Assembly: GCA_028291365.1 (NCBI GenBank)
Contig: JAQGIE010000010.1
Coordinates: 1-40,604, forward strand
Length of the DNA stretch: 40,604 nucleotides
Reading direction: 5' to 3'
From: Rhodospirillales bacterium
Lineage (GTDB): Bacteria; Pseudomonadota; Alphaproteobacteria; BOG-932; Roseiterribacteraceae
Notes under the pieces: model-generated
Told to the model about the DNA's origin: nothing
What the model saw: the letters and a program-made list of their open reading frames with translations, nothing else
Database searches by the model: none
Translations under genes and position numbers: made by a program
Shown: positions 10,543 to 37,659 of the stretch, piece after piece
How positions within the stretch are numbered: the stretch's first letter is position 1
Layout: the number at the start of each line of letters is the position of its first letter

Positions 10543-10581
10543 CTTCAGCGCTCTTCCACTTCCATGCCTTCAGGACACGAC

Positions 10582-12003: not shown

Positions 12004-12006
12004 CCC

Positions 12007-20790: not shown

Positions 20791-20870
20791 CAATGTGGCA
20801 AGCCAGCACGGACCGTTGTCCTTCGCTCCGCTGGGTAGATCGGCTGCGAGCTGCATCGTGACGAACACGT

Positions 20871-20890
20871 ACCATACAGCGCTGTATGGT
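20871..20890. promoter_or_regulatory. Operator palindrome O1 (perfect)
   Basis: ACCATACAGC/GCTGTATGGT is a perfect 20-bp palindrome between the TetR stop and the Lrp gene start. It is the best copy of a motif found also at 21547, 28458 and 37642. Its form (two 8-9 bp arms around a 2-bp centre) is typical of TetR-family operators. Confidence 0.7.
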
Positions 20891-20910
20891 TCAATCGAGA
20901 AGCAGGGAAA

Positions 20911-21516
20911 TCAGCTGTCGAGTTCGACCAGGATTTTGGAATAGAGCGGCAGCAGCTTGTGCCGTTCGGCTTCGGATTCGCGGATCGCCAGCGCGTAATA
21001 GCCGACCTGGTGGAAATAGATTACGCGGGCGCGCACCACCGCCTCTTCCGGCGCGAAACCGAACGAGTTCATCAGGCGCGTCAACGCGGCGATGCGCTTC
21101 TCGTCGATCCGACGCACCGCACGGGCGACCGCGGCGTCCTTGCGGGCCCAGTCGCGCACCGCTGAATCGAAGGCCGGGCTGAACTCCTTTTCCTCGATCC
21201 AGACTTTGGTGACTTCGTTGAAACCGTCCCGGCCGCGCTTCTCCGCCGCTTCGATCGCAAGCAGCAGCGGGCCGGTATTGGTCGCCTCCCAATGATCGAG
21301 CAGCGCGCGCAACAGGTCGTCGCGATCGGTGAAGTGCCAGTAGAAGCTGCCGCGCGTCATCTTGATGTCGCGCGCCAACCGGTCGACTTTCACATGGTCG
21401 ACGCCGCCCTTGAGCAACGCCGCCTTGGCCGCGTGCAGCCAGTCTTCGCGGCTCAGTGGGGGCGGTGCCGTCTTGCTTTTGCTTTTGGCGCGCGGCGCGG
21501 TTTTCTTGGTAGCCAT
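20911..21516 (-). CDS. TetR family transcriptional regulator
   Basis: A 201-residue TetR/AcrR repressor. After a basic N-terminal tail (MATKKTAPRAKSKSKTAPP) comes the DNA-binding domain: LSREDWLHAAKAALLKGG, then VKVDRLARDIKMTRGSFYWHFTDRDDLLRALL, the classic TetR helix-turn-helix ending in YWHF. The C-terminal half is helical and would bind the inducer. ATG 21516 was chosen; an ATG 12 nt upstream is also possible. An imperfect copy of the palindromic operator lies 31-48 bp upstream, consistent with autorepression. The same palindrome occurs before lrp, purU and the ECF sigma gene, so I infer this protein controls all four. Confidence 0.85.
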   Translation of the reverse strand: MATKKTAPRAKSKSKTAPPPLSREDWLHAAKAALLKGGVDHVKVDRLARDIKMTRGSFYWHFTDRDDLLRALLDHWEATNTGPLLLAIEAAEKRGRDGFNEVTKVWIEEKEFSPAFDSAVRDWARKDAAVARAVRRIDEKRIAALTRLMNSFGFAPEEAVVRARVIYFHQVGYYALAIRESEAERHKLLPLYSKILVELDS

Positions 21517-21546
21517 GTGCGCGACCATAGCGTCCAGGACGGCCGG

Positions 21547-21564
21547 CAATCCAGGTCTGTATGG
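21547..21564. promoter_or_regulatory. Operator palindrome O2 (imperfect), before TetR gene
   Basis: CAATCCAG-GT-CTGTATGG matches the consensus CCATACAG-N2-CTGTATGG at 6 of 8 left-arm and 8 of 8 right-arm positions. It lies between the folD stop and the TetR start. Confidence 0.5.
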
Positions 21565-21581
21565 CCGGGTCTTTACGAACC

Positions 21582-22505
21582 TCAGGCGGCTTGGTTGATC
21601 GGATCGTCGGCGAGGCCGAGAGTCGCCGGCGCCAGGCGTGCTGTACTGCCCGCGGCCTGCAGCGTGTTGAGCAGCAGGCAGGCGATCGTCATCGGACCGA
21701 CGCCGCCCGGCACCGGCGTCAATGCGCCCGCGACCTGCGCCGCCGACGGGTCCACGTCGCCGACGATACGGAACTTGCCGCTCGCCGGGTCCTGCACCCG
21801 GTTGATGCCGACATCGATCACGATCGCCCGCGGCTTGACCCAGTCGGGACGCACCAGTCCGGGCTTGCCGACCGCCGTCACGAGAATGTCGGCGCCGCGG
21901 CACAGGAACGGCGTGTCGCGCGTGTGGATATGCGCGACGGTGACGGTGGCCCGCTCGGCCAGCAACAGCGCCGCCATCGGCTTACCGACAATGTTCGAAC
22001 TGCCGAGAACGACCGCGTTCATGCCGGTCAAGTCCGGCGTCACCTGTTTGATCAGCATCAGACAGCCGAGCGGCGTGCACGGCACCAGCGCCGTGGCGTT
22101 CTGCGAGACCTTGCCCGCGTTCAGCGCGTGCAACCCGTCGACGTCCTTGTCGGGATCGATCGCCGCCATCACGCGCAGCGTGTTGACATGATCGGGTAGC
22201 GGTAGTTGCACGAGAATGCCGTCGACGTCGTCTGCTGCATTCCAGGCGGCGATCTGGCCCAGGATCTCCGCCTCGCTCACGCCGGACGGAAACCGCATCA
22301 CGTTCGACACGATCCCGACCTCGGCTGCGCGCTGCAATTTGCTGCGCACATAGACGTGGCTGGCCGGATCGTCGCCCACGAGAATGACGGCAAGCCCCGG
22401 CTTGCGCCCGGTCAACGCCGCAAATTTCGCCGCTGCCTGCGCGACGCGCGCGCGCAGCCGCGCAGCTGCTTCATTGCCGTCGATGCGCAGCGCCGTGCCG
22501 CTCAT
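21582..22505 (-). CDS. folD: Bifunctional methylene-THF dehydrogenase / methenyl-THF cyclohydrolase
   Basis: FolD, 307 residues. It converts 5,10-methylene-THF to 10-formyl-THF with NADP+. Family motifs are all present: HVYVRSKLQRAAEVGI (the catalytic Y-x3-K), ILVQLPLPDHV, DPDKDVDGLH, PCTPLGCLMLI, the Rossmann segment VVLGSSNIVGKPMAALLL, and PGGVGPMTIACLL at the end. The ATG overlaps the soxG stop by 4 nt. It is the last gene of the purU-sox operon. There it would process the methylene-THF formed by sarcosine oxidase, feeding PurU. It may be a second copy besides a housekeeping folD. Confidence 0.95.
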   Translation of the reverse strand: MSGTALRIDGNEAAARLRARVAQAAAKFAALTGRKPGLAVILVGDDPASHVYVRSKLQRAAEVGIVSNVMRFPSGVSEAEILGQIAAWNAADDVDGILVQLPLPDHVNTLRVMAAIDPDKDVDGLHALNAGKVSQNATALVPCTPLGCLMLIKQVTPDLTGMNAVVLGSSNIVGKPMAALLLAERATVTVAHIHTRDTPFLCRGADILVTAVGKPGLVRPDWVKPRAIVIDVGINRVQDPASGKFRIVGDVDPSAAQVAGALTPVPGGVGPMTIACLLLNTLQAAGSTARLAPATLGLADDPINQAA

Positions 22506-23092
22506 GCCGCGACGTCGAATTCACGCGCCGCCTGGACCAGCCAGGTCCAGAGATACGGCGCCAGGCTGCTTTCGACATGCACGTCGAACCGGTCGGCCGC
22601 ACGACGGTGCAACAGCACCAAGGCCTGCCCAAGCAAGGTGCTGGCGCAGGCATCGACGGCGAAGGACGACGGGTCGAGATCGATCGGGCAGCCGCAGGCG
22701 AGCAGGTCAGCGGCAGAGGCACCTTCGATCTCGATCGCGCAACGCGCGGCGGTGAGATCGAACAGGCCGATTTCGTCGTCGCGCGCCGCATCGAGCCGTG
22801 CCAGCAACGACGCGGTCGCATCGCGCGAAGCCAGCGCCAGCCACCGCGACGGCGCGTGCCGGATCCAGGCCGGATCGTCGCCTTCGGCGCGATTGGGCGC
22901 GCGCGGCAAAGTCAGGCCAGTGCGCTGCTCGAACCGTTCCAGCGCCGCCAGATCTGGCGTCGCACGCGGATCGGCAAGGCGAAGCTGTACGTGGCCCAGC
23001 CCCGTCCGTTCGGTGAAGCGCAACGAACGGGCGACATACACGCCCTGCGCGATGCCGATCGGCGCCAGTGGCGACTGGAAAGTCTCAGCCAT
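22502..23092 (-). CDS. soxG: Sarcosine oxidase gamma subunit
   Basis: SoxG, about 196 residues, the small structural subunit of heterotetrameric sarcosine oxidase. Recognisable are the N-terminal MAETFQSPLAPI, VQLRLADPRATPDLAALERFEQRTG, WLALASRD with IDLDPSSFAVDACASTLLGQALVLLHR, and the end SLAPYLWTWLVQAAREF, which follow the subunit's usual order. The ATG at 23092 overlaps the soxA stop by 8 nt and its stop overlaps folD by 4 nt. Position and length, more than single motifs, support the call. Confidence 0.85.
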   Translation of the reverse strand: MAETFQSPLAPIGIAQGVYVARSLRFTERTGLGHVQLRLADPRATPDLAALERFEQRTGLTLPRAPNRAEGDDPAWIRHAPSRWLALASRDATASLLARLDAARDDEIGLFDLTAARCAIEIEGASAADLLACGCPIDLDPSSFAVDACASTLLGQALVLLHRRAADRFDVHVESSLAPYLWTWLVQAAREFDVAA

Positions 23093-26021
23093 GGAGGCGC
23101 GCTCCCTGCGTGTCGTAGAAGACCGGATCGACCACGCGCGCACTCAAGGTGTTGTGCTCGTAGAACAAGGTCACGATCTCGCCGCGACGATCGAGCCCGC
23201 CTTTGAGCAGGCCGAGCCCGATCGAACGATGCAGCACCGGACTGACACAGGACGAGGTGATGCGGCCGTCGAGCAGCGCCGGCGGCTTCTTGCAGCCGGC
23301 CGGCAGCACATGCGCACCGACCGGCAGCGCACGTTCGGGATCGATACTTTCGAAACCGACCAGGCGAAACCGGTCGGCGCGCAACGCGTCCGGCCGCGTC
23401 AGGGAACGCCGTCCGACGAAATCGCTCTGCTTCTTCGCCGGTACCGCGAAGCCGAGATCGGCCGGGATGGTCGTGCCATCGGTGTCGCTGCCGATGTGGA
23501 TGTAGCCCTTCTCGATCCGCAGTCGTAACCAGGTCTCGATGCCGATCGGCGCCACGCCGAACGCTTCGCCGGCCGCAAACAGCGCTTCCCACAAGGCGGC
23601 GCCCGACGACCAGGCGACGCTGACTTCATATTGGACTTCGCCGGTGAAGCTGACGCGCTGCACGCGCGCCTTCATCCCCGCCACCGTGCCCTCGCGCAGC
23701 TGCATGTGGCCGAACACATCCGGTGCGAGATCGATGTCGGTGCCGGCGCGCTGCAACAGATCGCGCGCCGACGGACCTGCAATCGCGATCGTCGCCCAAG
23801 CCGTCGTGAGGTCGCACACCGCGACCTTCAGCTCGGGCCATTCGCATTGCAGCCAGTCTTCGAACCGGGCCGAGATTGCCAATGCCATGCCGCTGGTTGG
23901 GCTGACGAGAAAACGCGTCGGCGTCAGGCGTGCAAAGACACCGTCATCGATCACCGTGCCGTGCTCGTTGAGCATCAGCCCGTAGCGCAGCTTCCCGGGC
24001 TGCAGACTCGACGCGCTGCCGAGATACATGCGGTCGAGGAAAATTCCCGCGTCGGGACCGCAGACTTCGATCTTGCCCAGCGGCGAACCGTCGAACAAGC
24101 CGACCCCGTTGCGCACCGCGCGCCATTCGCGCGCGATCGCCACCTCCTGGGTCTCGCCGGCGCGGAGATAGAATTCGGGCCGCTGCCAGCCGCCGAAATC
24201 TTCAAAATGCGCGCCGAGCTTCACATGGGCCGCATGGGCCGGCAGGTATTTTCGCGGACGGAACAGGTCGCCGCGCGCCGTGCCCGCGATGGCACCGAAC
24301 GTCACCGGCGTATAGGGCGGCCGGAACGTCGTGGTGCCGACGTCAGGGATCGCCTTGCCAACCGCGTTCGCCAATAGCGCCAGCGCGTTCACGTTGCTGG
24401 TCTTGCCCTGGTCGGTTGCCATGCCGGTCGTCGTGTAGCGCTTGAGCAGCTCGACCGAGCAAAAGGATTCGCGCGCCGCCAATTCAATGTCCGCGCTGGT
24501 GACGTCGTTCTGGAAATCGACCCACTGCTTGCCCCGCGCAAGCGCATCGGGCACGCGCCAGTGCGGCTCGATACGCAAGCCCGCCTCGTCTGCGACCTGC
24601 GGCGGCGCAATGACCACCGCGTCATGCCCCGCCCGGCGCGATGCTTCGACGCCGGCACGTGCGCCTTCGGCAAAACACGTGGCGAGATCGAAGGCGCCGT
24701 TGGCGGCACCTGCCACGATGACTGCCTGCACCGGCAGCGCCGGCCTGAAGCAGGATTGCACCTCGTCGAAGCGCAGCTTTCCGCCCGACTGTGAGAAGAG
24801 ATGCACAACCGGCGCCCAGCCGCCCGCCATCAGCACCGCGTCGCAGGCGACGCGACGGCGCCTGCTGTTGTCGTGCGGGACGATTTCGATCCTGTCGACA
24901 CGCATGCGGCCGCCGGTGTCGGCGATCGTCGCACCTGGGATCAATTCGATGCCGCGGCGCGCGCAGCCCGTCTGCAGCTGCGTATCCGGATGCGAGCGCA
25001 CGTCGACGACGATCGGCTTCGCACCCGCAGCCGCCAGGTCGAACGCAGTCTCGTAGGCCGAGTCGTTGTTGGTGAAGACGACCGGCCGCTGTCCGACCAG
25101 CACCGCATGGCGCTGCAGATAGGCACGCGCCGCGCCCGCCAGCATGATTCCCGGACGGTCGTTGTTGGGAAACACCAACGGTCGTTCGATCGCGCCCGTC
25201 GCCAGCACGACCTGTTTGGCCCGTACGTACCAGATGCGCTGGGCGAGTTCGCCGCCGCTGCAACGTTCGGCCAGCGTGACCAGATTGTGATCGTAATAGC
25301 CGAATGCGGTGGTGCGCGGCAGCACGCGCACATTCGGCAGCGCGGCGAGTTGCGCCGCCATGTCATGCAGGTAGAACGGGGCTGGCCGGTCCTCGATCCG
25401 CCCGCCGTGAAAGGCGCTGTCGCCGCCGAGCTCGTCGCGCTCGTCGACCAGCATCACGCGGGCGCCGCTTTGCGCCGCGCTGCGCGCCGCCTGCAATCCG
25501 GCGGGACCGGCGCCAACTACCAGCACGTCGCAATGGGCGTGACGATGCGCATAGCGATCGGGATCCGGCTCGGTCGGTGCGCGGCCAAGACCGGCGGTGC
25601 GGCGGATCATGCCTTCGTAGAATTTCCACGACGGCAGGAAGAACGCCTTGTAGTAGAAGCCCGCCGGCAGAAAGCGCTGGAACAAGCCCAGCACTGCCTG
25701 CAAGTCGAATTGCAGCGACGGAAAGCGGTTCTGGCTGAAGGCTTCGAGCCCGTCGGTCAACGTCACCTGCGTCGCACGCAGATTCGGCGTCGCGTAGGCC
25801 CCCTTCCCCACCGTCACCAGCGCATTAGGTTCGTCGGCGCCGAAGCCAACGATGCCACGTGGCCGGTGCAGCTTGAAACTGCGCGCGACGAGATGTTCGT
25901 CATTGGCCAGCAACGCCGAGGCCAGCGTGTCGCCCGCGAAACCGGTGAAGGCACGGCCGTCGAAGGTGAAACGCAGCTTTTTGGAACGGTCGATCCGGCC
26001 GCCCTGCGCGAGACGGCTCAT
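23085..26021 (-). CDS. soxA: Sarcosine oxidase alpha subunit
   Basis: SoxA, 978 residues, a normal length for this subunit. The enzyme oxidatively demethylates sarcosine to glycine with H2O2 and passes the methyl carbon to THF as 5,10-methylene-THF. In order: an N-terminal ferredoxin-like domain (LRFTFDGRAFTGFAGDTLASALLAN, residues about 16-40), the NAD-binding Rossmann motif CDVLVVGAGPAGLQAARSAAQSGA near 165-190, the remainder of the pyridine-nucleotide domain with VVLATGAIERPLVFPNND, and a C-terminal glycine-cleavage T-protein-like THF domain from about residue 600 (GVGLFDGSPLGKIEV, GLRYG-like LRYGLMLNEHG, QYEVSV). Overlaps of 4 nt with soxD and 8 nt with soxG indicate translational coupling. 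Confidence 0.95.
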   Translation of the reverse strand: MSRLAQGGRIDRSKKLRFTFDGRAFTGFAGDTLASALLANDEHLVARSFKLHRPRGIVGFGADEPNALVTVGKGAYATPNLRATQVTLTDGLEAFSQNRFPSLQFDLQAVLGLFQRFLPAGFYYKAFFLPSWKFYEGMIRRTAGLGRAPTEPDPDRYAHRHAHCDVLVVGAGPAGLQAARSAAQSGARVMLVDERDELGGDSAFHGGRIEDRPAPFYLHDMAAQLAALPNVRVLPRTTAFGYYDHNLVTLAERCSGGELAQRIWYVRAKQVVLATGAIERPLVFPNNDRPGIMLAGAARAYLQRHAVLVGQRPVVFTNNDSAYETAFDLAAAGAKPIVVDVRSHPDTQLQTGCARRGIELIPGATIADTGGRMRVDRIEIVPHDNSRRRRVACDAVLMAGGWAPVVHLFSQSGGKLRFDEVQSCFRPALPVQAVIVAGAANGAFDLATCFAEGARAGVEASRRAGHDAVVIAPPQVADEAGLRIEPHWRVPDALARGKQWVDFQNDVTSADIELAARESFCSVELLKRYTTTGMATDQGKTSNVNALALLANAVGKAIPDVGTTTFRPPYTPVTFGAIAGTARGDLFRPRKYLPAHAAHVKLGAHFEDFGGWQRPEFYLRAGETQEVAIAREWRAVRNGVGLFDGSPLGKIEVCGPDAGIFLDRMYLGSASSLQPGKLRYGLMLNEHGTVIDDGVFARLTPTRFLVSPTSGMALAISARFEDWLQCEWPELKVAVCDLTTAWATIAIAGPSARDLLQRAGTDIDLAPDVFGHMQLREGTVAGMKARVQRVSFTGEVQYEVSVAWSSGAALWEALFAAGEAFGVAPIGIETWLRLRIEKGYIHIGSDTDGTTIPADLGFAVPAKKQSDFVGRRSLTRPDALRADRFRLVGFESIDPERALPVGAHVLPAGCKKPPALLDGRITSSCVSPVLHRSIGLGLLKGGLDRRGEIVTLFYEHNTLSARVVDPVFYDTQGARLHG

Positions 26022-26299
26022 GGCGTTGTCTCAGCCGGCGCGGCGCCCATTTCGTAGACCTGGGTCACCGCATGCGTGACCGTGTCGCGTTCTACGTTGA
26101 ACCACAGGCCGCAGCCCACGACGTGCCGCCAGCGCTCGCGCAACAGGCCTTTGGGATTGGGCTGGAAGAACAGATAAGCGCTCCATTGTTCGTCGCTGAC
26201 CTGTTCCGGCGGGCCTGGACGTTGCACGTGGCTGCGTCCGCCGCAGGCGAACTCGATTTCCGGACGGACACCGCAAAAAGGACAGTCGAGCAGCAGCAT
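26018..26299 (-). CDS. soxD: Sarcosine oxidase delta subunit
   Basis: SoxD, 93 residues, the zinc-containing small subunit. The four zinc ligands known for the family are found at their standard positions: Cys6 and Cys9 in CPFCG, His59 and Cys63 in RHVVGCGLWFN. Between them is the conserved WSAYLFFQPNPKGLLRERW. It lies 11 nt after soxB and overlaps soxA by 4 nt. Confidence 0.95.
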   Translation of the reverse strand: MLLLDCPFCGVRPEIEFACGGRSHVQRPGPPEQVSDEQWSAYLFFQPNPKGLLRERWRHVVGCGLWFNVERDTVTHAVTQVYEMGAAPAETTP

Positions 26300-26310
26300 G
26301 TTCGTACCGT

Positions 26311-27561
26311 TCAGTGCGCGATGCCGGCCGCGGCCGCTTCGTCGATCATCGCGCCGCTGGTGAAGCGCGCGAATCCGAACGGCTTGGCCAGCGGATGCGG
26401 ATCGTCATGGGCGATCGTATGGGCGAAGGTCCAGCCGCCGGCCGGGATCGCCTTGAACCCGCCGGTGCCCCAGCCGCAATTGATGTACAGGCCCGGCACC
26501 GACGTTCGGTCGATGATCGGCGAACTGTCGTGCACGACGTCGACGATGCCGGCCCATTGCCGCATGAAGCGCAGGCGTCCGACCGACGGAAACATGTCGA
26601 CCATCGCCGCAACCGTCTTTTCGACGGTAGGAAAGTTGCCGCGCTGCGCGTAGGACGCGTAGAGGTCGAGCCCGCCGCCGATCACCAGCTCACCTTTGTC
26701 GGACTGGCTGAAATACATGCCGGTCGCGGGCGACAGCACGACCGTGTCGAGCATCGGCTTGACCGGCTCGGAGACGAAAGCCTGCAGCGCGTAGCTGTTC
26801 ACCGGCAGTTCGATTCCGGCCTTGGCCGCCAGCGCCGAGCTGTGCCCAGCGACCGCGATCGCAACTTTGGGCGCCGCGATCGTGCCTTTGCTGGTGACCA
26901 CGCCCGAGATGCGGCCGGCCGCGGTCTCGAAGCCCAGCACTTCGCAATTCTGCACGATGTCGACACCGCGCGCGGCGGCGGCGCGCGCATAACCCCAGGC
27001 GACCGCGTCGTGCCGCGCCGAGCCGCCGCGCGGCTGGTTCATGCCGCCGTAAATCGGAATCCGCGCCGATGGCGAGGCGTCGATGATCGGCACCAGTTTC
27101 TTGACTCGGGCCGCGTCAAGGATTTCGGCGTCGATGCCGTTCAGATGCATCGCCGACGCCCAGCGCGACACGTTTTCCATGTCGTGGCGCGAATGCGCCA
27201 GCAGGATCATGCCGCGCTGGCTGAACATGATGTTGTAGTTGAGCGTACGACTGAGCTTCTCGTAGAGCTTGACCGAGAAATCGTAGAAGGCGGCGCTTTC
27301 GGGAAAGAGGTAATTGGACCTGATGATGGTCGTGTTGCGGCCGGTATTGCCGCCACCGATCCAGCCTTTTTCAAGCACCGCGACGCGCCGCAGCCCGTGA
27401 TTTTCCGCCAGGTAATAAGCGGTCGCGAGCCCGTGCCCGCCGCCGCCGATCACGATCGCGTCGTACGAAGCCTGCGGCTGCTCGACGCCCCAATTCGCCT
27501 GCCAACCGCGATGACCGTTGAGCCCGTGGCGCAGCAAAGCTGCCAACGAATAGCGCTGCAT
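26311..27561 (-). CDS. soxB: Sarcosine oxidase beta subunit
   Basis: SoxB, 416 residues, the catalytic subunit of heterotetrameric sarcosine oxidase. It binds FAD, where sarcosine is oxidised, and covalent FMN, which passes electrons to oxygen. The FAD motif AIVIGGGGHGLATAYYLAE is near residues 35-53, with the ADP-binding acidic strand end VLEKGWIGGGNTGRNT after it. RHDAVAWGYARAA around His184 is the conserved covalent-FMN attachment segment. The C-terminus has YINCGWGTGGFKAIPAGG. Its ATG overlaps the purU stop by one base, so translation is coupled. Confidence 0.95.
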   Translation of the reverse strand: MQRYSLAALLRHGLNGHRGWQANWGVEQPQASYDAIVIGGGGHGLATAYYLAENHGLRRVAVLEKGWIGGGNTGRNTTIIRSNYLFPESAAFYDFSVKLYEKLSRTLNYNIMFSQRGMILLAHSRHDMENVSRWASAMHLNGIDAEILDAARVKKLVPIIDASPSARIPIYGGMNQPRGGSARHDAVAWGYARAAAARGVDIVQNCEVLGFETAAGRISGVVTSKGTIAAPKVAIAVAGHSSALAAKAGIELPVNSYALQAFVSEPVKPMLDTVVLSPATGMYFSQSDKGELVIGGGLDLYASYAQRGNFPTVEKTVAAMVDMFPSVGRLRFMRQWAGIVDVVHDSSPIIDRTSVPGLYINCGWGTGGFKAIPAGGWTFAHTIAHDDPHPLAKPFGFARFTSGAMIDEAAAAGIAH

Positions 27562-28424
27562 CAGCGGAACACCACGGTCTTGTTGCCGTTCAGCAGCACG
27601 CGATTCTCCACGTGCCACCGCACCGCACGCGCCAGCACCACCGATTCGACGTCGCGGCCGAGTTCGACCAGCGTGTCGGGCGTAGCGTTGTGATCGACGC
27701 GCTGCACCTCCTGCTCGATGATCGGACCTTCGTCGAGATGTTCGGTCACGTAATGCGCGGTGGCGCCGATCAGCTTCACACCGCGAGCATGCGCCTGATG
27801 GTACGGCTTGGCGCCCTTGAAGCTGGGCAGGAATGAATGGTGGATGTTGACGATGCGGCCGGCATAGTCGCGGCACATGTCGGTCGACAGGACCTGCATG
27901 TAGCGTGCGAGCACGATCAGATCGATCTTTTCGGCGTCGACGAGGTCGCGCAGCCGCTGTTCCTGCACCCGTTTGGTCTCGGCGGTGACCGGCATGTGAT
28001 GGAATGGAATGTCGTGCCAGGCGGCGAGCTGATAGAAGTCGCGATGGTTCGAGACGACGGCCGGGATGTCGACCTTCAACGTGCCGCTCGACCAGCGATG
28101 CAGCAGGTCGTTCAGGCAATGGCCGAATTTCGACACCATCAGCAGCACGCGCGGACGGTGCCTTGTGTCGGTGAGCCGAATCGTCATGCCGAACCGGTCG
28201 ACCGACGGCGCCAGCAACAGGTCGATCTCGCTTCTTTCCAACGTGCGGGGGCTGGAAAACCGGATCCGCATGAAGAACAGGCCGGTCGAACGGTCGTCGA
28301 ACTGCGCGCTGTCTTCGATGTTGCAACCGGCCTCGAACAAGGAACCGGTGACCGCCGCAACGATGCCGGGCTGGTCGGGGCAAGTGATGGTCAGCACGAA
28401 CTCGCTGGCAGGCACGCTGGACAC
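27561..28424 (-). CDS. purU: Formyltetrahydrofolate deformylase
   Basis: PurU, 287 residues. It hydrolyses 10-formyl-THF to formate and THF. The N-terminus is an ACT domain (FVLTITCPDQPGIVAAVTGSLFEAGCNI). The C-terminal formyltransferase-fold domain has LLMVSKFGHCLNDLL, AVVSNHRDF, MQVLS, VNIHHSFLPSFKGAKPYHQA and IGATAHYVTEHLDEGPIIEQ. The start is taken as GTG 28424 with GGGGAG 6 nt upstream; no ATG fits. It is first in the operon with soxBDAG-folD and would return THF to sarcosine oxidase while disposing of one-carbon units as formate. An operator palindrome lies 34-51 bp upstream. Confidence 0.93.
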   Translation of the reverse strand: MSSVPASEFVLTITCPDQPGIVAAVTGSLFEAGCNIEDSAQFDDRSTGLFFMRIRFSSPRTLERSEIDLLLAPSVDRFGMTIRLTDTRHRPRVLLMVSKFGHCLNDLLHRWSSGTLKVDIPAVVSNHRDFYQLAAWHDIPFHHMPVTAETKRVQEQRLRDLVDAEKIDLIVLARYMQVLSTDMCRDYAGRIVNIHHSFLPSFKGAKPYHQAHARGVKLIGATAHYVTEHLDEGPIIEQEVQRVDHNATPDTLVELGRDVESVVLARAVRWHVENRVLLNGNKTVVFR

Positions 28425-28457
28425 GATGGCTCCCCTGGGGCTCCTTTGATCGCCCGA

Positions 28458-28475
28458 CCATACAGCTCTGTATGG
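28458..28475. promoter_or_regulatory. Operator palindrome O3, before the purU-sox operon
   Basis: CCATACAG-CT-CTGTATGG has both 8-bp arms perfect. It sits in the leader or promoter of purU. A further left half-site, CAATACAG, follows at 28482. It shares the arm sequence with O1 exactly. Confidence 0.7.
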
Positions 28476-28504
28476 GACGTGCAATACAGATCTCCCCAGC
28501 ATCC

Positions 28505-28711
28505 TTACTTCGCGGCGGTCCGCCGTTTCTGGGACGGTTTCGCACCCAGCTTGATCCCGTCCGCCACGCCGCAACGGCGCGGATCGGCGGTGGCGCCGAG
28601 ATCGCCGGTCTTGGGATCGCGGAAACACATCTGGAACGAGCCCATATGCCAGTCGTACTGTCCGACCGCGCGCGTCCGCACGCCCATCTTGGCGAAGAAA
28701 GCGAGCGGGGC
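28505..28711 (-). pseudogene. C-terminal remnant of a gamma-glutamyltransferase gene
   Basis: About 68 residues in one frame resembling the very end of gamma-glutamyltransferases: APLAFFAKMGVRTRAVG, then DWHMGSFQMCFRDPKTG and LGATADPRRCGVADG, close to the family's final GS-x-x-x-DPR segment, followed by a basic tail. Nothing corresponding to the rest of the enzyme (normally over 500 residues) is present; the DUF885 gene ends 34 nt upstream. There is no ribosome-binding site at the internal ATG (28687). I infer a deletion that removed most of the gene. Confidence 0.5.
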
Positions 28712-28744
28712 TGCCGCCCTAAAAAAGAGACGATCGCGCCTAAC

Positions 28745-30436: not shown

Positions 30437-32160
30437 GCCGCGAGTTGCGCGATGGTGCGATCGACCTCGGCTTCGACCAGGTTCAGCGGCAAGGCACCCG
30501 GACGCAGCACGGCGTCGTGGAAGCGCCGTATGTCGAACTTCGTGCCCAGCGCGTCGCGCATCCTGGTGCGCAGTCGCATCAGCGCCACGTCGCCGATCTT
30601 GTAGGCCAGCGACTGGGCCGGGATGTCGCAGGAATAACGCACGCTTTCGCTGCGAATCTCGGCGTCGGACATGAACGAGTTTTCGCGCATATAGACGCGC
30701 GCCTGTTCCAGCGACCAGCCCAGCGCGTTCATGCCGGTATCGACGACCAGCCGGCAGGTCAGGAACGCATCCATAACCAGACGACCGAACCGTTCGTCGG
30801 GCAGTTCGTACATGCCCATCTCGCCCGCCAGGGTCGCGGCGTATTCGGCCCAGCCTTCGTTGAAGGCGTTGATGAAGCAATTGGCGCGCAGCGGATGCAG
30901 CCCCTCATTCTCCCACTGCGAGGCGAAATGCAGGTGATGGCCCGGCATCAGCTCGTGATAGTTCAGCGCGCCGAGATTGAAGAGGCCGCGCTGGGTCAGG
31001 TTGCGCGCATTGTAGAGATAGCGTCCGATCGGCTGGTCGGCCTTGGGCGGATCGTAAAAGCCGAACGACATTGCCCCCGCCAGCGAATCCGGCAACGCCG
31101 CAGCATCGTGTCCGGCTTTGGGCTGGAACGAGAAATACGCGCCGAGATGCGGCTTGATCCGTTCGATATAGACGCGAAACAGCCGCGTGACCTCCTCCTC
31201 GTTCGCGGCACGCCAGCGCGGCTGTGCGTCGAGCGACTCGCGCCAGGCCTGGTCGCTGCCGCTGAACCCCGCCTCGGTTCGCGCCGCCTGCATGTCGCTG
31301 CGGATCTGCGCCATCCGGTCAAGGCCCATCGCGTGCACGTCGCGCGCAGTGAGGTCGAGCGTCGTGTGCTGGCGGATCAGCGCCGCATAGATCTCGGGCC
31401 CGTCTCTATACTGCGCCATGCCGACCGTTTCGGGCGCGCGCTGCGCATGGGTTTCGCCGAGCAGCGCAACGAATTCGTCGAATGCGGCGGCGACGTCGCG
31501 CAGGCGCGCAGTGAGTTCGGCCTGGAAGGATGGCGGCACCCGCGCCGGCAGGCGCGCATCCACGACCTGAAGTTCGGCCAGCGCACGTTGCTGCAATCCC
31601 TGCAGCAGCGGCACGGTCTGCACCAGCTGCACTTGCGGCATGTAGGTGCCACCTTCGGCCTGCCCGCGCGTGCGTTCCACCATCTCCCGCACCAGCCGCG
31701 CGAAATCGGCAACGAAGGCGAGATAGCGGTCGAGATCGGCGGCGTCGTGCAGCGCCATCTTCTGCATCGATACCAGCACGTTGCTCAGCACGCCGCCGCC
31801 GCAATAGGGCGTCGGAGCGAACAGGCCGAAGAATCCGACGCCCGCCGGATCGAACACGGTCCCGTACCAATCGTCTTCGCGCGCCCAACGTCCGGCATAG
31901 AGATTGGCGAGCCGCACCGTCAGCGCGAGATCGTGCGGTAGTGACGCGAGATCGAGCTGCGCGATCTCGGCGCCAAGCTTGCGGCCGCGATTGGCCCGGC
32001 GCTGCACCGAATCGAACGAGACGTGAAACAGGGACGGGCGCTGGTTGAGCGCTTGGGCGCCCCATCCCGGCGCTTGCCGCAATTCGCTCCAGGCATCGTC
32101 GACGATGCGCAAAGCGCGTCCGCAATCGTTCGATGGGGCCGCGCCGTGCTGTTCAGTCAT
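30433..32160 (-). CDS. DUF885 family putative metallopeptidase (copy 2)
   Basis: A 575-residue DUF885 protein with the same architecture as its neighbour: NYHELMPGHHLHF as zinc motif, then NEGWAEYAATLAGEMGMYELPDERFGRL, and a shared end region (LVVDTGMNALGW, SLAYKIG, RFHDAVLRPGALPLNLVE). It is clearly a paralogue of the protein encoded next to it but well diverged, so the two may cleave different bonds of one substrate. No signal peptide is seen. ATG 32160 overlaps the MFS stop by 8 nt; an ATG 12 nt upstream is equally open. Neither has a good ribosome-binding site, which fits translational coupling. Confidence 0.85.
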   Translation of the reverse strand: MTEQHGAAPSNDCGRALRIVDDAWSELRQAPGWGAQALNQRPSLFHVSFDSVQRRANRGRKLGAEIAQLDLASLPHDLALTVRLANLYAGRWAREDDWYGTVFDPAGVGFFGLFAPTPYCGGGVLSNVLVSMQKMALHDAADLDRYLAFVADFARLVREMVERTRGQAEGGTYMPQVQLVQTVPLLQGLQQRALAELQVVDARLPARVPPSFQAELTARLRDVAAAFDEFVALLGETHAQRAPETVGMAQYRDGPEIYAALIRQHTTLDLTARDVHAMGLDRMAQIRSDMQAARTEAGFSGSDQAWRESLDAQPRWRAANEEEVTRLFRVYIERIKPHLGAYFSFQPKAGHDAAALPDSLAGAMSFGFYDPPKADQPIGRYLYNARNLTQRGLFNLGALNYHELMPGHHLHFASQWENEGLHPLRANCFINAFNEGWAEYAATLAGEMGMYELPDERFGRLVMDAFLTCRLVVDTGMNALGWSLEQARVYMRENSFMSDAEIRSESVRYSCDIPAQSLAYKIGDVALMRLRTRMRDALGTKFDIRRFHDAVLRPGALPLNLVEAEVDRTIAQLAA

Positions 32161-33454
32161 GCTTTGACTCATCGAGAAGAAGTTTCTTCATGCCGCGCAG
32201 CACCTGCAGGTAGGTGAGCAGCAACAGCGGGGTTGCGATCATGGTGGCGCCGAACAACGCCCAACGCAGCGACTCCGCGCCCGTGGCCGCCGCCAGCGCA
32301 TCGCTGGCGAGCCCGATCGCCATCGGCCCGCCACCCATGCCGATGAAAGCGGCCGAGAACATCACCATCGCCGAGGCGGTGGCGCGCGACGACGGACGTA
32401 CGATCGTCTGCACGGTTGCGGTGATCGGTGCGGTGTAGAGCGAACCGAGCAGTCCGCTGACGCCCGACAGCACATAGGCGAGATCGAGATCGTGCGCGAG
32501 ATACATGCCGGCCTGCGGCACGAAGCCGATCACCGTGCCCCATAACACGATCCGCATCGGCCACAGCGGATGACGCTTCGCCATCCGGTCCGCCAGCAGC
32601 CCGCCGGCCAAGGTGCCGATCAACGTACCGACGCCGCGCGTCGCGGCAATCATCGCGCCAAGCTCGCTGGTGCCGCCGCCGAAACTGCGCTGAAAGAAAG
32701 CGGGCAGCCATTGGCCATGTGCGTAGAGCAGAAACACCGACAGGCCGAAGGCGAAAAAAAGCGGACGAAAGGCCGGGTTGGCCCACAGCTCACCGACGGT
32801 CGAGCGACTGGTTGCGCCCGGGGCGCGAAGCACTTCGGCGTAGCGGCCGCGCGGCGGCTCGCGGAAGGTCAGCAGCAGCAACAGCGACACGAACACGCCC
32901 GGCAGGCCGACGGCCGCAAACGCGGCGCGCCAACCGAACGACTGTTCGAGCCAGCCGCCCAGCGCAAAGGCGGCCATCATCCCGCCGGACGCGCCGACGC
33001 TGTAAATCGCCATCGCGGTCGAACGGCGCGTTGCGGGAAACAGGTCGGCGATCATCGAATGCGATGCGGGCACGCCGCCCGCCTCGCCCGCGCCGACGCC
33101 GATACGCGCGATCAGAAACTGCCAGAAACTTTGCGCCAGGCCGCACAGCGATGCGGCGACGCTCCACACCGCAAGCGATGCGGCCAGGACGAGCTTGCGC
33201 GGATGACGGTCGGACAAGGTGCCCAACGGAATCGCGCAGACCGCGTAGATCGCCGAAAATGCAAACCCCGTCAGCAGCCCGATCTGCGAGTCCGACAGGC
33301 CCAGCTCGGCCTTGATCGGCTGCACCAGGATCGCGAGCAGAAACCGGTCGGCGTAATTGAACCCCATGATCAGGGTCAGCAGCAGCAGCCCGTACCACTC
33401 GACAAAGCTGGGCATGCCGACACGTGCCGTTGTCTCGGACGGCACGTGCGGCAT
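32153..33454 (-). CDS. MFS transporter (spinster-like)
   Basis: A 433-residue major facilitator of the spinster-like type. It has about 12 membrane segments, with GFNYADRFLLAILVQPIKAELGLSDSQIGLLTG at the first loop and the conserved motif GTLSDRHPRKLVL between segments 2 and 3. It starts 14 nt after the TonB receptor stop and overlaps the downstream DUF885 gene. It probably moves the TonB-imported compound from periplasm to cytoplasm, where the two peptidases would act. The substrate is unknown. MPSFVEW, 13 residues in, is an alternative start. Confidence 0.88.
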   Translation of the reverse strand: MPHVPSETTARVGMPSFVEWYGLLLLTLIMGFNYADRFLLAILVQPIKAELGLSDSQIGLLTGFAFSAIYAVCAIPLGTLSDRHPRKLVLAASLAVWSVAASLCGLAQSFWQFLIARIGVGAGEAGGVPASHSMIADLFPATRRSTAMAIYSVGASGGMMAAFALGGWLEQSFGWRAAFAAVGLPGVFVSLLLLLTFREPPRGRYAEVLRAPGATSRSTVGELWANPAFRPLFFAFGLSVFLLYAHGQWLPAFFQRSFGGGTSELGAMIAATRGVGTLIGTLAGGLLADRMAKRHPLWPMRIVLWGTVIGFVPQAGMYLAHDLDLAYVLSGVSGLLGSLYTAPITATVQTIVRPSSRATASAMVMFSAAFIGMGGGPMAIGLASDALAAATGAESLRWALFGATMIATPLLLLTYLQVLRGMKKLLLDESKHD

Positions 33455-33468
33455 GCTTTCGGTACTGC

Positions 33469-35940
33469 TCAGAATTGCACCGCGGCGCGAACGCCAAAGG
33501 TGCGTGGGGGCAGGACCCGGTTGAAATACGGACCGGTCGTCACGTTTGAAAACCCGTTCGCGGCGACGTTGGTGATGTCGTAACTGTCGAACAGATTTTG
33601 GACGAAGAAGGTGAACTGCCAGCTTTTGGATTCGAGGCCGGCGCTGACGTCGAACCGGTCATAGCTCGGCACCGGCAGGAAGGACGCCGGCTTGTTGACG
33701 TTCTCGACCCGCGTCGCGCCGATATAGCGATAGTCGCCGCGCAGCATCAGGTCCCACACCGCGCTGACCGGCATCCGGTAGGTGACGTTCAGGTTTCCGG
33801 TCCATTCCGGCGTATAGGGAAACTTCTCGCCGGCATGATCGAAATTGTTCTGGTCGACATATTTGACGAACTTGGTGTCGGCATAAGACAGCGCGCCGCC
33901 GATGTTGAGTCCGTCGAGCGGCCGCAGCGTCGTTTCCAGTTCGAAGCCCCGCGAGCGGCTGGAGCCGGCATTGTTGATCACCGACGTGTTGATGTTGTCG
34001 ATCTTGGTCAGCGACGTGACCTGCTGGTTGTCGATGTCGATGTAATAGACCGCGGCCCGGATCGAGGCGCGGTTCTGGAAATACGAGCCCTTCCAGCCGA
34101 CTTCGTAGTTGGTCGAGCTTTCGCTGGCGTACGGGATCAGCGCCGATGGTGCCGACGGGAATTTTGGGAAGCCGCCCGCCTTCCAGCCGCGCGAGATGGT
34201 GGCGTAGAGGCGCGTATCCTCGTTCAACGCGTAGGAGATCGAGCCCATCGGCGAGAAGTTGTTGAAGTTCTGCGTACCGGTGGGATTGAACTGCAACAAC
34301 GCCAGCGCCGGTGCATAGCGGCGGCGGAAGCCGCTGATATCGACGATCTCACGGCCATAGCGCAGGCCCGCGGTGAATTCGAAGTCGTCAAACTTGTACG
34401 ACGCCTGGCCGAAGGCGGCGCCGCCGCGGCGCTTCAGCATGATGTCTTCGTTGATCGCGGCATTCTTCAGCAAGGCCGCGTTCCCCGCGGTGAAGGTCTG
34501 GGTGTCGTTGTACCAGGCGAACCGGCGCTGCTCGTGCTCTTCATCAAAGAAGTAGAGACCGCCCATCCATTTCAGCGGACCATCGCCGTCCGATTCCAGG
34601 CGCAGCTCCTGGCTGAACGTGCGCTGGCGCGAATTCAGGTTCCAGTTGGTGCCGGCATAGGTTTCGCCGAACGGGTTGGTGAAAGGCTGCGACAGGTTCG
34701 AGTTGATGCCGTCATTGTCGAGATGAATGTCGGTCTGCGCAAAACGTGCACCGGTGATCGAGGTCAAGGTCGCGCCGCGCAAATTCCACTTCGCCGACAC
34801 CATCACGCCCGACACACGCTGGGTGTCCTTCGGGTGATATTCGCCGAACGTGTCGTAGCAGTTGCAGCCAGCCGGCACGCCGATACCGGCTTCGTTATAG
34901 TGCCGGTAGTACATGTCGCCGGTCACGTTCAGTTCGAAATCGTCGTTAGGGCGCCACACGACCACGGGCCGCACTGCGTAGGAACGCGACGGAGCCTGAT
35001 CGGTATGCAACGTCTGGTTCGTGAGATACCCGTCGGTGTTGCGCACTTCGGCCGAGATGCCTGCGAACAAGGTTCCGCTGACCGGGCCGCGCACCGCGAC
35101 GCGCGCGTGCGACGTGTTTTCGGACCCGTATTCGACCAGCGCCGAACCTTCGAAATCCGGCCCCGGTTTCCTGGTCACAATATTGAGCGCGCCGCCTTCC
35201 GTATTACGGCCGAACAGCGTTCCCTGCGGGCCGCGCAGCACTTCGATCCGGTCGGCGTCGAGAAAGTCGAGATTGAAACCCAGGCTCGACTGGTAGACGC
35301 CGTCGACATAGACGCCGACCGCCGGTTCGAGACCGGCGTTGAAGCCGACGCCGCGCATCGTGATGTAGGTGAAGTCGCCCGACTGCGCCGCGATATTGTT
35401 CTGCGCGAAATACAGACCCGGCACGCGGCCGGCGAGATCGGTCGAGCTGCGGATGTTGGCCGCGTCGAGCTGCGCGCCGCTGATATTGCTGACGGCCATC
35501 GGCACGTCGATCAGCCGCTCTTCGCGTTTACGCGCCGTTACCACCAGCTCTTCCGGCGGCGCTTCGGCGCGCGCCACACGCGGCGGCGCGACGACCGGCG
35601 CTGCGGCACCCGCACGCGCAGGGCGTACGACGACGCTTTTCGCGTCGGTGAACTGGAATTGCAGATTGCTGTCGCGCAGCAATTCACGGAGCGCGTCGGC
35701 GGGTTCGAACGTGCCGCTCAGCTTCCCGCTGCGCAGATCGCGCGGAATCCCCGGTGCCAGCACCACCTGCAGATCGGCCTGGCGGCCGAAGGCAAGCAAG
35801 GCGGTCTCGATCGACTGCGGCGCGATTTCGAATTTCGCCGGTGCCGCCATCGCAACGCCGCCGGCAAACAACATCGCCGTGCCGACCAACAATCCAGCCA
35901 ACGTCCTACGGACGCGCATCCCCGTTCCAGTTCCCGCCAT
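33469..35940 (-). CDS. TonB-dependent receptor with STN signalling domain (FecA-type)
   Basis: An 823-residue TonB-dependent receptor. In order: a signal peptide ending AMAAP (about residue 33); an STN domain at about 35-105 (FEIAPQSIETALLAFGRQADLQVVLA, then FEPADALRELLRDSNLQFQF); a TonB-box-like EELVVTARKREERLIDVP; a plug with ITMRGVGFNAGLEPAVGVYVDGVYQ and IEVLRGPQGTLFGRNTEGGALNIVT; and a barrel ending VRAAVQF. STN domains pass ligand occupancy to a FecR anti-sigma protein, and such a gene with its ECF sigma lies directly upstream. AGGAG precedes the ATG. A small inverted repeat (GACCGG-N5-CCGGTC, 35960-35976) lies in the 80-bp gap after fecR. The barrel is of the general type seen for siderophore, oligosaccharide or peptide receptors, so the ligand is open. 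Confidence 0.92.
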   Translation of the reverse strand: MAGTGTGMRVRRTLAGLLVGTAMLFAGGVAMAAPAKFEIAPQSIETALLAFGRQADLQVVLAPGIPRDLRSGKLSGTFEPADALRELLRDSNLQFQFTDAKSVVVRPARAGAAAPVVAPPRVARAEAPPEELVVTARKREERLIDVPMAVSNISGAQLDAANIRSSTDLAGRVPGLYFAQNNIAAQSGDFTYITMRGVGFNAGLEPAVGVYVDGVYQSSLGFNLDFLDADRIEVLRGPQGTLFGRNTEGGALNIVTRKPGPDFEGSALVEYGSENTSHARVAVRGPVSGTLFAGISAEVRNTDGYLTNQTLHTDQAPSRSYAVRPVVVWRPNDDFELNVTGDMYYRHYNEAGIGVPAGCNCYDTFGEYHPKDTQRVSGVMVSAKWNLRGATLTSITGARFAQTDIHLDNDGINSNLSQPFTNPFGETYAGTNWNLNSRQRTFSQELRLESDGDGPLKWMGGLYFFDEEHEQRRFAWYNDTQTFTAGNAALLKNAAINEDIMLKRRGGAAFGQASYKFDDFEFTAGLRYGREIVDISGFRRRYAPALALLQFNPTGTQNFNNFSPMGSISYALNEDTRLYATISRGWKAGGFPKFPSAPSALIPYASESSTNYEVGWKGSYFQNRASIRAAVYYIDIDNQQVTSLTKIDNINTSVINNAGSSRSRGFELETTLRPLDGLNIGGALSYADTKFVKYVDQNNFDHAGEKFPYTPEWTGNLNVTYRMPVSAVWDLMLRGDYRYIGATRVENVNKPASFLPVPSYDRFDVSAGLESKSWQFTFFVQNLFDSYDITNVAANGFSNVTTGPYFNRVLPPRTFGVRAAVQF

Positions 35941-36020
35941 GCCCCGCTCCTGTTCGCGTGACCGGTTGATCCGGTCTGAAGCTGAGACGCTCGGCCCGCG
36001 CCGATCCGAACTGGCGAACC

Positions 36021-37091
36021 TCAGAATCCGTCGCGGCGATGGGCAAGCACGATGGCCCCGTCACCGTCGACCGTGGCGCGGATCGGAAACGCACTTTCCA
36101 GCGCGCGCGTCCAGCTGCCGAGATCGTTCACTGAAATCGTGCCGGTGTAGCGAATGTCGGCGACGCTCGCGTCGGCGAAACGAACCGGAAGCGCGACGTA
36201 GCGCCGGAGGTCGGCAATCACCGCCCCCAGCGGACGATTGAGATAGCTCGGCCGTCCTTCGCGCCACGTCACCGCGATCGACGGATCGACCGTGCGGATC
36301 GCACTCAGCTCGTCGCGATAGGAAACTTGCTGGCCGGGCGCGAGACGCGCGATCTGGCGCGGCTCGCGGCGCGGCGGTTCGTCCTTGCTGCTGGCATAGG
36401 GCGGCGCCACCAGCACCGCCCCTTGCAGCAAGGTCACGTCGACGCCGCTGTCGGTGAGCTGCACGTCGAATTCGGTGCCGACGGCGCGAATTTCGCCGCC
36501 GCGCGCACGCACGATGAAAGGCCGCGCGGCATCGTGCGCGACGTCGAACAGCGCCTGCCCGCGCATAAGCTGGACGACGCGTTCACGCCGTTCGAACTTC
36601 GCCACCAGTTGCGAGTCGGCGTCGAGCAGCACGCTCGATCCGTCCGGCAAGGTGACGCGCTTCTGCTCGCCCTGGGCGGCGGCGTAGTGCAGCTCGACCG
36701 GAGACGGCGCCCAGATTTCTTCGCGCCACCAGCCCGCGACCGCGAGAAGCAGCAGGCACGCCGCCAGCGCCATCCACGGGCGGTGCGTCGCGCGCGTCGT
36801 GGCCCCAAGACTTGTCCGGCCGAGGCTGGTGCGCCCCAAAAGAAAACGCCCGCGGCGTCTTTCCTCCGCCGCGGGCAGCGCCGTCCAGAAACGCAGCAGC
36901 TCGTCATAGCGGCGCTGTCGTTCCGGCGACGCGTCGAGCCATGCACGCCAATGCGCCCTGGCGGCGGGGTCCGCTTCGGGGGCCTGCAGGCAGGCAAGGC
37001 AGTCGGCGAGCGAAGTCGCCAGCGGATCGCGTGAATCGTCCATCAGTGCAGATGAGACGTTCGGCGACGCCGGATCCGAACTCGCTGTCAT
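36021..37091 (-). CDS. FecR family anti-sigma / sigma-regulator
   Basis: A 356-residue FecR-type inner-membrane regulator. The N-terminal cytoplasmic part contains the DUF4880-like segment (CLACLQAPEADPAARAHWRAWLDASPERQRRYDELLRFW). One membrane segment follows near 105-121 (PWMALAACLLLLAVAGWW). The periplasmic FecR domain shows VTLPDGSSVLLDADSQL, RGQALFDVAHDAARPFIV and VGTEFDVQL. The C-terminal STN-like end interacts with the receptor in characterised systems. A short tandem repeat (GRTSL twice) lies before the membrane segment. The ATG overlaps the ECF sigma stop by 4 nt. Confidence 0.9.
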   Translation of the reverse strand: MTASSDPASPNVSSALMDDSRDPLATSLADCLACLQAPEADPAARAHWRAWLDASPERQRRYDELLRFWTALPAAEERRRGRFLLGRTSLGRTSLGATTRATHRPWMALAACLLLLAVAGWWREEIWAPSPVELHYAAAQGEQKRVTLPDGSSVLLDADSQLVAKFERRERVVQLMRGQALFDVAHDAARPFIVRARGGEIRAVGTEFDVQLTDSGVDVTLLQGAVLVAPPYASSKDEPPRREPRQIARLAPGQQVSYRDELSAIRTVDPSIAVTWREGRPSYLNRPLGAVIADLRRYVALPVRFADASVADIRYTGTISVNDLGSWTRALESAFPIRATVDGDGAIVLAHRRDGF

Positions 37092-37624
37092 GCATGCTCC
37101 GCTTCGAGCCGCGCGGCGCAGCTGGCCAGCGCCCGCAGCGCGTAGCGTCGCGCCATCACTTCGGACAGGTTCATGCGCCGTCCGATCTCGGCAAAGGAAC
37201 AGCCTTCGATGCGGAACAGAAGCAGCGCCTCACGCTCCTTCGGCGCCAGCTCTTCCAGCATGGCGGCGAAGCGTTCGAGATCGTCGCGCGCGAGAAACGC
37301 GGCTTCCGGCGATGGGTGCGTGCCCAGCGCCTCGGCCAGCAGCGGCTCGTCGGCATCGACGGTGCGCCAGCGGCGACGGCGGCGAAGCTGGTCGACGGCG
37401 AGATTTCCGGCAACGCGATAGAGAAAAGCGCGCGGATTGGCGACCGTGCCTTCGCGCATCGCCTGCACCAGGCGCAGGTAGGATTCCTGGGCGACGTCGT
37501 TCGAATCCTGCTCGCAGCCAAGACGCGCGCGCAGAAAAGCGATCAGCCCTAGCCGCTCGTTCTTGCAGACACCATCCTCGCCGCGACGCGGCTTGGCGAC
37601 ATCCAGTGCGATCAGGCTTCGCAT
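37088..37624 (-). CDS. ECF-family RNA polymerase sigma factor (FecI-like)
   Basis: A sigma-70 family ECF factor of about 178 residues. Region 2 includes DVAQESYLRLVQAMREG and PRAFLYRVAGNLAVDQLRRRRR. Region 4 includes LEELAPKEREALLLFRIEGCSFAEIGRRMNLSEVMARRYALRAL. With fecR and the STN receptor it forms a cell-surface-signalling set: ligand binding outside would release this sigma to transcribe the receptor operon. The start is taken at MRSLIAL (37624). An in-frame ATG at 37645 lies inside the operator palindrome, so repressor binding would cover the leader or the start itself. Confidence 0.88.
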   Translation of the reverse strand: MRSLIALDVAKPRRGEDGVCKNERLGLIAFLRARLGCEQDSNDVAQESYLRLVQAMREGTVANPRAFLYRVAGNLAVDQLRRRRRWRTVDADEPLLAEALGTHPSPEAAFLARDDLERFAAMLEELAPKEREALLLFRIEGCSFAEIGRRMNLSEVMARRYALRALASCAARLEAEHA

Positions 37625-37641
37625 CTGCGCGCTCGAACATC

Positions 37642-37659
37642 CCATACAGTCCTGTCTGG
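37642..37659. promoter_or_regulatory. Operator palindrome O4, before the ECF sigma operon
   Basis: CCATACAG-TC-CTGTCTGG has one mismatch to CCATACAG-N2-CTGTATGG. It lies 18-35 bp upstream of the chosen sigma start, in a 57-bp gap after the M20 gene. Confidence 0.6.

Follow-up and report, generated by a model that had tools for sequence, protein, structure and literature searches.

The window analysed here, a stretch of 40,604 bases of contig JAQGIE010000010.1 from a Rhodospirillales bacterium, contains four copies of one palindrome, CCATACAG-N2-CTGTATGG, called operators 1 to 4 below, and the gene of a TetR-type regulator that probably binds them. The copies stand before an import operon, the genes of sarcosine oxidation, tetR itself and an lrp-type gene, and the arrangement suggests one repressor over the uptake and breakdown of a nutrient that yields sarcosine. 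All genes concerned are encoded on the minus strand. The genes and operators are listed here in order of falling coordinates, with mismatches counted against the palindrome and operator scores taken from the weight matrix described below.

37642-37659, no strand: operator 4, 15 of 16 positions (1 mismatch; 23.7 bits), before the sigma factor gene
37088-37624, minus strand: extracytoplasmic function (ECF) sigma factor gene, FecI-like (profile matches)
36021-37091, minus strand: fecR-type anti-sigma regulator (profile matches)
33469-35940, minus strand: TonB-dependent receptor (barrel 7.9e-46, plug 3.8e-16, weak N-terminal STN 1.7e-4)
32153-33454, minus strand: major facilitator superfamily (MFS) transporter (profile matches)
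30433-32160, minus strand: first DUF885 gene (solved relatives 3o0y, 3iuk and 3u24)
28745-30436, minus strand: second DUF885 gene (1.1e-106)
28458-28475, no strand: operator 3, perfect (0 mismatches; 29.1 bits), upstream of purU-soxBDAG-folD
27561-28427, minus strand: purU, formyltetrahydrofolate deformylase (over the curated cut-off; start placed by eye)
26311-27561, minus strand: soxB, beta subunit (649 bits, cut-off 529)
26018-26299, minus strand: soxD, delta subunit (PF04267, 115 bits, cut-off 27)
23085-26021, minus strand: soxA, alpha subunit of a heterotetrameric sarcosine oxidase (1255 bits, cut-off 1164)
22502-23092, minus strand: soxG, gamma subunit (TIGR01375, 1.2e-29; 103 bits, below the cut-off of 144)
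21582-22505, minus strand: folD (398 bits, cut-off 396)
21547-21564, no strand: operator 2, 14 of 16 positions (2 mismatches; 20.9 bits), upstream of tetR, where it would serve autoregulation
20911-21516, minus strand: tetR, proposed repressor with the recognition helix TRGSFYWHF (PF00440, 5e-10; predicted TetR fold)
20872-20889, no strand: operator 1, perfect (0 mismatches; 28.3 bits), between tetR and the lrp-type gene
20314-20868, minus strand: Lrp/AsnC-type regulator gene (Lrp 1.1e-17, below the curated cut-off; the gene caller favours a start at about 20790)

Four matches to the palindrome were found in the window against a chance expectation of 0.02, and none of 100 shuffles reached four. 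A fifth copy was not present in the window at up to three mismatches. Within the whole assembly (4,367,869 bases in 271 contigs), the same four were the only sites with two mismatches or fewer, and 4 of 4 fall within one 17-kb stretch. Three further sites had three mismatches (C23:2280, C34:3005 and C233:26438); two of them lie inside predicted genes, while the remaining one reaches into the 3' end of a gene and faces a convergent one. The reversed palindrome, used as a control, had no match in the assembly, and the exact core ATACA-N4-TGTAT occurred twice, both times in the window. A weight matrix was built from 40 sites that precede tetR in relatives, with the rows of the window and of the same genus left out. 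It gave the four operators 20.9 to 29.1 bits, the best background place in the window 10.5 bits and the three 3-mismatch sites 9.5-11.7 bits, a test that is not fully independent because its 40 rows were gathered using the window consensus (≤3 mismatches). The counts in the window, in the assembly and at the loci of relatives rule out a chance or repeat-element origin of the palindromes. A genome-wide regulon is likewise ruled out, since every other candidate has three mismatches, scores low with the matrix and lies within a gene or at its end. The original prediction had described four copies of one palindrome in the window with no other comparable one and sites that all precede same-strand transcription units in the gene order and orientation listed above; all of this was confirmed, apart from the start of the first site, which had been put at 20871 and is 20872. 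Nor is the motif scattered at random through the genome, which would have spoken against the prediction. Reading all four sites as promoter elements was rejected, as a good -35 (TTGACA) was present at the ECF site only and its -10 is poor; the promoter search gave a weaker pair at the lrp site and none at the set score for the purU and tetR sites.

Operator 4 overlaps the first ATG (37645) of the longest open reading frame, so that the sigma factor gene more likely starts at 37624. A possible promoter of the ECF gene, TTGACA-N16-TACCGT, lies directly upstream of this operator, and a repressor bound there would block initiation at it. The STN (signalling) match of the receptor reached 21.7 bits, under the cut-off of 28.4; given this sub-threshold match, surface signalling through FecR appears likely. 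Just upstream of operator 4, an M20-family amidohydrolase gene is found (37703-38878, minus strand), and M20-like genes also occur in L087 and L110. An open stretch of 79 codons on the minus strand (28508-28744) separates operator 3 from the second DUF885 gene; its assignment by eye as the remnant of the C-terminal end of a gamma-glutamyltranspeptidase was dropped, there being no Pfam match.

The TetR protein has an N-terminal PF00440 DNA-binding domain (39.4 bits, cut-off 24). Its structural model, with a mean predicted local distance difference test (pLDDT) score of 90.5, has the all-helical TetR fold with the variable C-terminal ligand and dimer domain. The nearest solved chains were QacR, FasR, BioQ and EthR, the three best with only 14-19% identity. 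They are low in identity and point to no ligand, and deriving the inducer from structure was given up. When the protein sequence was searched against solved structures, the matches were mostly limited to the DNA-binding domain. Going by sequence evidence, a palindromic operator stands at tetR's own gene both in the window and in relatives; the orthologue in the same genus, which is 70% identical, has a 2-mismatch site upstream as well.

Homologues of the TetR were gathered from two sources. The class set of 385 genomes gave 43 matches in 38 genomes at E ≤ 1e-20, of which 24 were fetched with their flanks together with the same-genus one. From named genomes, the best 80 of at least 541 confirmed candidates were taken (the named loci). 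After removal of two loci repeating named genomes and of the near-identical L056, L075, L077, L106, L112 and L125, the non-redundant set amounted to n = 98 including the window. The stretch searched at each locus ran from 350 bases before the matched TetR region to 60 bases within it.

The half-site changed along with the recognition helix of the TetR. Loci with a TRGS helix had the exact core ATACA-N4-TGTAT in 35 of 65 cases, and in 46 of 65 at one mismatch or less, versus 0 of 33 exact cores in the other classes. ATACG-N4-CGTAT was found in 4 of 5 TKGS loci and 0 of 93 elsewhere, [AG]TAGA-N4-TCTA[CT] in 2 of 2 TGGS loci and 0 of 96 elsewhere, and GACAC-N2-GTGTC in 3 of 18 SR[ST]S loci and 0 of 80 elsewhere, these three patterns having themselves been suggested by the loci counted. 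All 5-mer dyads with spacers of 0-12 were then counted with no motif supplied and with the window and the same-genus L072 left out. ATACA-N4-TGTAT came out top for TRGS (35 of 63), followed by overlapping and tandem forms, and the best unrelated dyad reached 5; for TKGS, ATACG-N4-CGTAT was top (4 of 5). The full motif was present upstream of tetR at up to two mismatches in 28 of 96 loci, whereas each of the permuted palindromes, up to 100 in number, gave none, and at up to three mismatches in 40 of 96, versus a permuted mean of 0.19 and a maximum of 5. Such co-variation of helix and half-site is hard to explain unless the TetR itself binds the palindrome. It argues for the TetR as the binder, as originally predicted, rather than Lrp or another protein, and Lrp was rejected in this role on the same ground.

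The 80 named loci (1.378 Mb) contained 52 sites with two mismatches or fewer versus 0, 1, 0, 0, 0 and 0 for six permuted palindromes; 34 of them lie just upstream of tetR and 18 elsewhere. Sarcosine oxidase, called from SoxA or SoxB with at least 38% identity over at least 200 residues, was present in 26 of the 80 loci. In a tree of the 98 TetRs (41 ungrouped rows left out), the sarcosine oxidase label needs 2 changes versus a shuffled mean of 19.2. Among the 26 loci, purU was found in 11, a TonB receptor in 10, a peptidase-type gene in 13 and a carrier of the POT, SNF or MFS type in 5; the 31 loci with an MTTB-type methyltransferase and no sarcosine oxidase had TonB receptors in 0 and peptidases in 3, and the 23 with neither had 2 and 6, the receptor, peptidase and carrier tallies being descriptive, because some of the query proteins had been taken from these very loci and a number of the loci are closely related.

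The motif recurs upstream of orthologues, as had been expected, before tetR homologues and, in other lineages, before soxB, purU, ECF, TonB receptor, MFS-DUF885 and peptidase genes. An operator precedes soxB in L074, L075, L080, L081, L086, L087, L091 and L116; in Sphingomonas populi (L091), this site is 8.5 kb from tetR. In Novosphingobium L076 and L077, sites separate purU from tetR and precede both a TonB receptor gene, whose divergent neighbour encodes a Rieske oxygenase, and the gene of an S15 X-Pro peptidase. In Stella (L082, L085), an S15 peptidase gene and an M19 dipeptidase gene flank one site, and tetR and soxB lie nearby in divergent orientation. Sphingorhabdus L116 has further sites before MFS-DUF885 and, with three mismatches, before a TonB receptor gene, its soxB site lying between an M19 dipeptidase gene and soxB. 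Brevundimonas L130 has a site before a TonB receptor gene with MFS, M19 and DUF885 genes in the surroundings. In the gammaproteobacterial L093, a site stands before an ECF sigma factor gene followed by soxB and soxA, and another ECF gene, fecR, a TonB receptor and an SNF carrier are found upstream of tetR. Rudaea L084 and Tahibacter L079, which have the TGGS helix, show a TAGA-type operator upstream of tetR; the neighbouring genes include one for an S9 dipeptidyl peptidase and, in the case of Rudaea, a DUF885 gene. In Sphingosinicella L098, L100 and L101, tetR precedes soxB, yet the loci had no site at up to two mismatches; L098 and L100 have a 3-mismatch site between the two genes.

Two other groups of loci were observed in the family. 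In L097, L099 and L104-L148 (Roseobacter-type and related), a sister branch of the TetR stands beside genes of an MTTB-type methyltransferase, a flavin adenine dinucleotide (FAD) oxidoreductase and EutQ-like proteins. These loci often have two sites (≤3 mismatches) exactly 20 bases apart, and such tandem sites recur upstream of tetR in the MTTB branch. In Aminobacter and relatives (L094-L096, L103, L112 and L119; L168 and L169), a nucleoside hydrolase gene precedes tetR, and in the first six of these the operator heads the nucleoside hydrolase-tetR unit, opposite a FAD oxidoreductase-type gene.

For the window, we infer the following model of binding, repression, effector and substrate, of DUF885 proteins as peptidases and of the sequence of steps. 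A TetR dimer would bind all four palindromes and repress four start points, namely those of its own gene, the lrp-type gene, purU-soxBDAG-folD and the import operon from the ECF gene to the second DUF885 gene. The repressor would be released by an effector inside the cell, for which sarcosine or a closely related N-methyl-glycine metabolite or peptide is the most likely candidate. The outer-membrane receptor would then import a peptide-like substrate, with the ECF/FecR pair as a second, surface-signalled control step, the MFS protein would carry it over the inner membrane, and the DUF885 proteins may act on it as peptidases. The sarcosine released would be converted to glycine by sarcosine oxidase, with FolD and PurU handling the one-carbon unit. 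We assign a probability of roughly 0.78 to the reading that one TetR repressor, released by an intracellular effector, controls the uptake and hydrolysis of a peptide-like nutrient together with sarcosine and one-carbon catabolism. The list of functions that had been placed under one repressor (outer-membrane import, inner-membrane transport, peptide hydrolysis and sarcosine/one-carbon catabolism) is likewise supported by sequence comparison. The nutrient is perhaps peptide-like and sarcosine-containing. Sarcosine forms proline-like imide bonds, and the recurrence of TonB receptors, S9 and S15 X-Pro peptidases, M19, M3, DUF885, gamma-glutamyltranspeptidase, POT and SNF carriers, sarcosine oxidase and PurU suggests the uptake and hydrolysis of peptides that yield sarcosine.

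Several results weigh against this reading. No core at one mismatch or less was found upstream of tetR in 19 of 65 TRGS loci, and no recognised palindrome in 15 of 18 SR[ST]S loci. The TRGG loci had the exact core in 0 of 5, with L081 alone having a 1-mismatch full site, and the sarcosine oxidase-linked TRGS loci had it upstream of tetR itself in only 5 of 16. A site with two mismatches or fewer was present in 13 of 26 loci with sarcosine oxidase, compared with 14 of 31 with MTTB and 14 of 23 with neither. In the window, the HExxH motif is found in only one of the two DUF885 proteins, and the import operon has a single operator, a 15-of-16 match that shares bases with the first possible ATG. 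A promoter within this operon that depends on the ECF factor could furthermore uncouple its TonB-MFS-DUF885 part from the TetR. Among the whole genomes of 15 relatives, 21 sites with up to two mismatches were found, 12 at tetR loci and 9 elsewhere; 5 of the 15 were without any site, and the reversed control gave 4 matches. The same-genus relative, in which tetR and its site are kept, has no SoxA over the family cut-off.

The last result belongs with those from the sister genus. SoxA is found in two of its genomes, one of them only 65% complete, both of which gave no tetR match at E ≤ 1e-20 and contain no site. A third gave neither a tetR match nor a SoxA above the cut-off; its single 2-mismatch site falls inside a predicted gene. 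With a site beside tetR where no SoxA passes the cut-off, and SoxA where neither a tetR match nor a site was found, the motif in this family follows tetR and not sox, and the target set of the regulon, to judge by these comparisons, turns over between lineages. Four of the 9 off-locus sites were looked at, and one of them lies inside a predicted gene. Another of the four, a 1-mismatch site in Mesorhizobium sp. 1M-11 (L189:5073), is located about 180 bases before a predicted periplasmic binding protein gene and upstream of two such genes in all. In the same-genus relative, a PAS histidine kinase gene is preceded by sites with three and two mismatches (L015:8402 and 8454) at a distance of 52 bases from each other.

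The explanation that competes best differs from ours in the effector alone, and we regard it as rather unlikely. The TetR would sense another N-methylated compound (dimethylglycine, N-methylproline or a betaine), sarcosine being merely downstream. Such a role would suit the sister branch beside MTTB-type methyltransferases (31 of 80 loci) and FAD oxidoreductases, and also the Rieske oxygenase genes behind sites in L077 and, at three mismatches, in L091. The recurrent partner in the window's own branch is, however, sarcosine oxidase, often with purU, and the search of the window genes, which did not cover every small open reading frame, turned up no Rieske, MTTB or dimethylglycine-type demethylase. 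Clearly less probable is that the TetR controls sarcosine catabolism while the import operon serves an unrelated cargo, such as a ferric siderophore, its operator being there by coincidence of neighbourhood or reflecting a separate physiological connection. The best named family of the receptor is of the siderophore type and ECF and FecR resemble ferric-citrate regulators, all below curated cut-offs, and operator 4 is imperfect; but this operator scores 23.7 bits against 10.5 for the best window background, and operators before TonB receptor, ECF and MFS-DUF885 genes recur beside homologous tetR genes (L076/L077, L093, L116 and L130), together with peptidases. That another regulator such as the neighbouring Lrp/AsnC protein binds the palindromes is very improbable even with a perfect copy upstream of the lrp-type gene and lrp-type genes near some homologues (L114, L138, L139, L144 and L145), since the half-site varies with the TetR recognition helix, the motif stands upstream of tetR also in loci where no lrp-type gene was detected, and the sister-genus genomes with sox but no tetR match are without it.

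From the preferred reading, namely one TetR repressor over uptake, hydrolysis and sarcosine catabolism, a wider picture can be drawn that we consider doubtful but worth stating. There may be a widespread undescribed pathway for sarcosine-containing (N-methyl) peptides, in which a TetR sensor would govern TonB uptake, imide-bond peptidases (DUF885, M19, S9/S15 X-Pro) and sarcosine oxidase. The wider TetR family might govern N-methyl amino acid catabolism, with a code in which the helix residue R, K or G sets the half-site to ATACA, ATACG or ATAGA, respectively.

Elsewhere in the window (4103-12591), a second import and catabolism group was observed with genes of a flavin amine oxidase, a TonB receptor, UbiD, an aldehyde dehydrogenase and flavoproteins as well as a weak MFS match. 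It has no palindrome nearby; an AraC-type regulator is encoded at 13116-14231.

Among known regulators, QacR, FasR and BioQ (TetR/AcrR) share the N-terminal helix-turn-helix, the all-helical fold and a palindromic operator at their own gene with the window TetR, but are only 14-19% identical to it, and to our knowledge none of them regulates sarcosine genes. The import operon resembles FecI-FecR-FecA in that an ECF sigma factor, FecR and a TonB receptor with a weak STN match form one operon; it differs in the TetR-type operator at the sigma factor gene and in running on into the MFS and two DUF885 genes. For sarcosine oxidase, regulators are known from Pseudomonas, where they act on sarcosine and glycine betaine genes, and from Bacillus, and one of them, SouR, we take to be an activator that is not of the TetR type. 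In Pseudomonas aeruginosa, soxBDAG is controlled by GbdR (AraC-type) and SouR in response to N-methyl-glycines, targets and a signal like those proposed here (PMC12093977). According to the part of the article available, these are activators, in contrast to the TetR-type repressor proposed here, and that part names no TonB receptor, ECF factor or DUF885 with them (PMC12093977). In Bacillus thuringiensis, SoxR is likewise a local regulator of a sarcosine oxidase locus, but it works with sigma-54, in another host and on another gene set, as far as the available part of the source describes it (PMC4941409).

The literature searched, mainly titles and the beginnings of abstracts, contained neither a TetR-type regulator that governs sarcosine oxidase along with import and peptidase genes nor a characterised function of DUF885. 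The device itself is an ordinary local autoregulated TetR repressor; regulator family, operator code and gene set are absent from that literature. One small repressor with four 18-bp sites offers a simple experimental handle on DUF885, on an orphan ECF/FecR/TonB set and on the MFS carrier, whose common substrate is predicted to release sarcosine. Regulon members in other genomes can be sought with the operator, and the co-variation of helix and operator provides a natural data set for TetR specificity. Compared with the systems above, the locus suggests that sarcosine oxidase can be placed under a TetR-type repressor, unlike the activators known in Pseudomonas.

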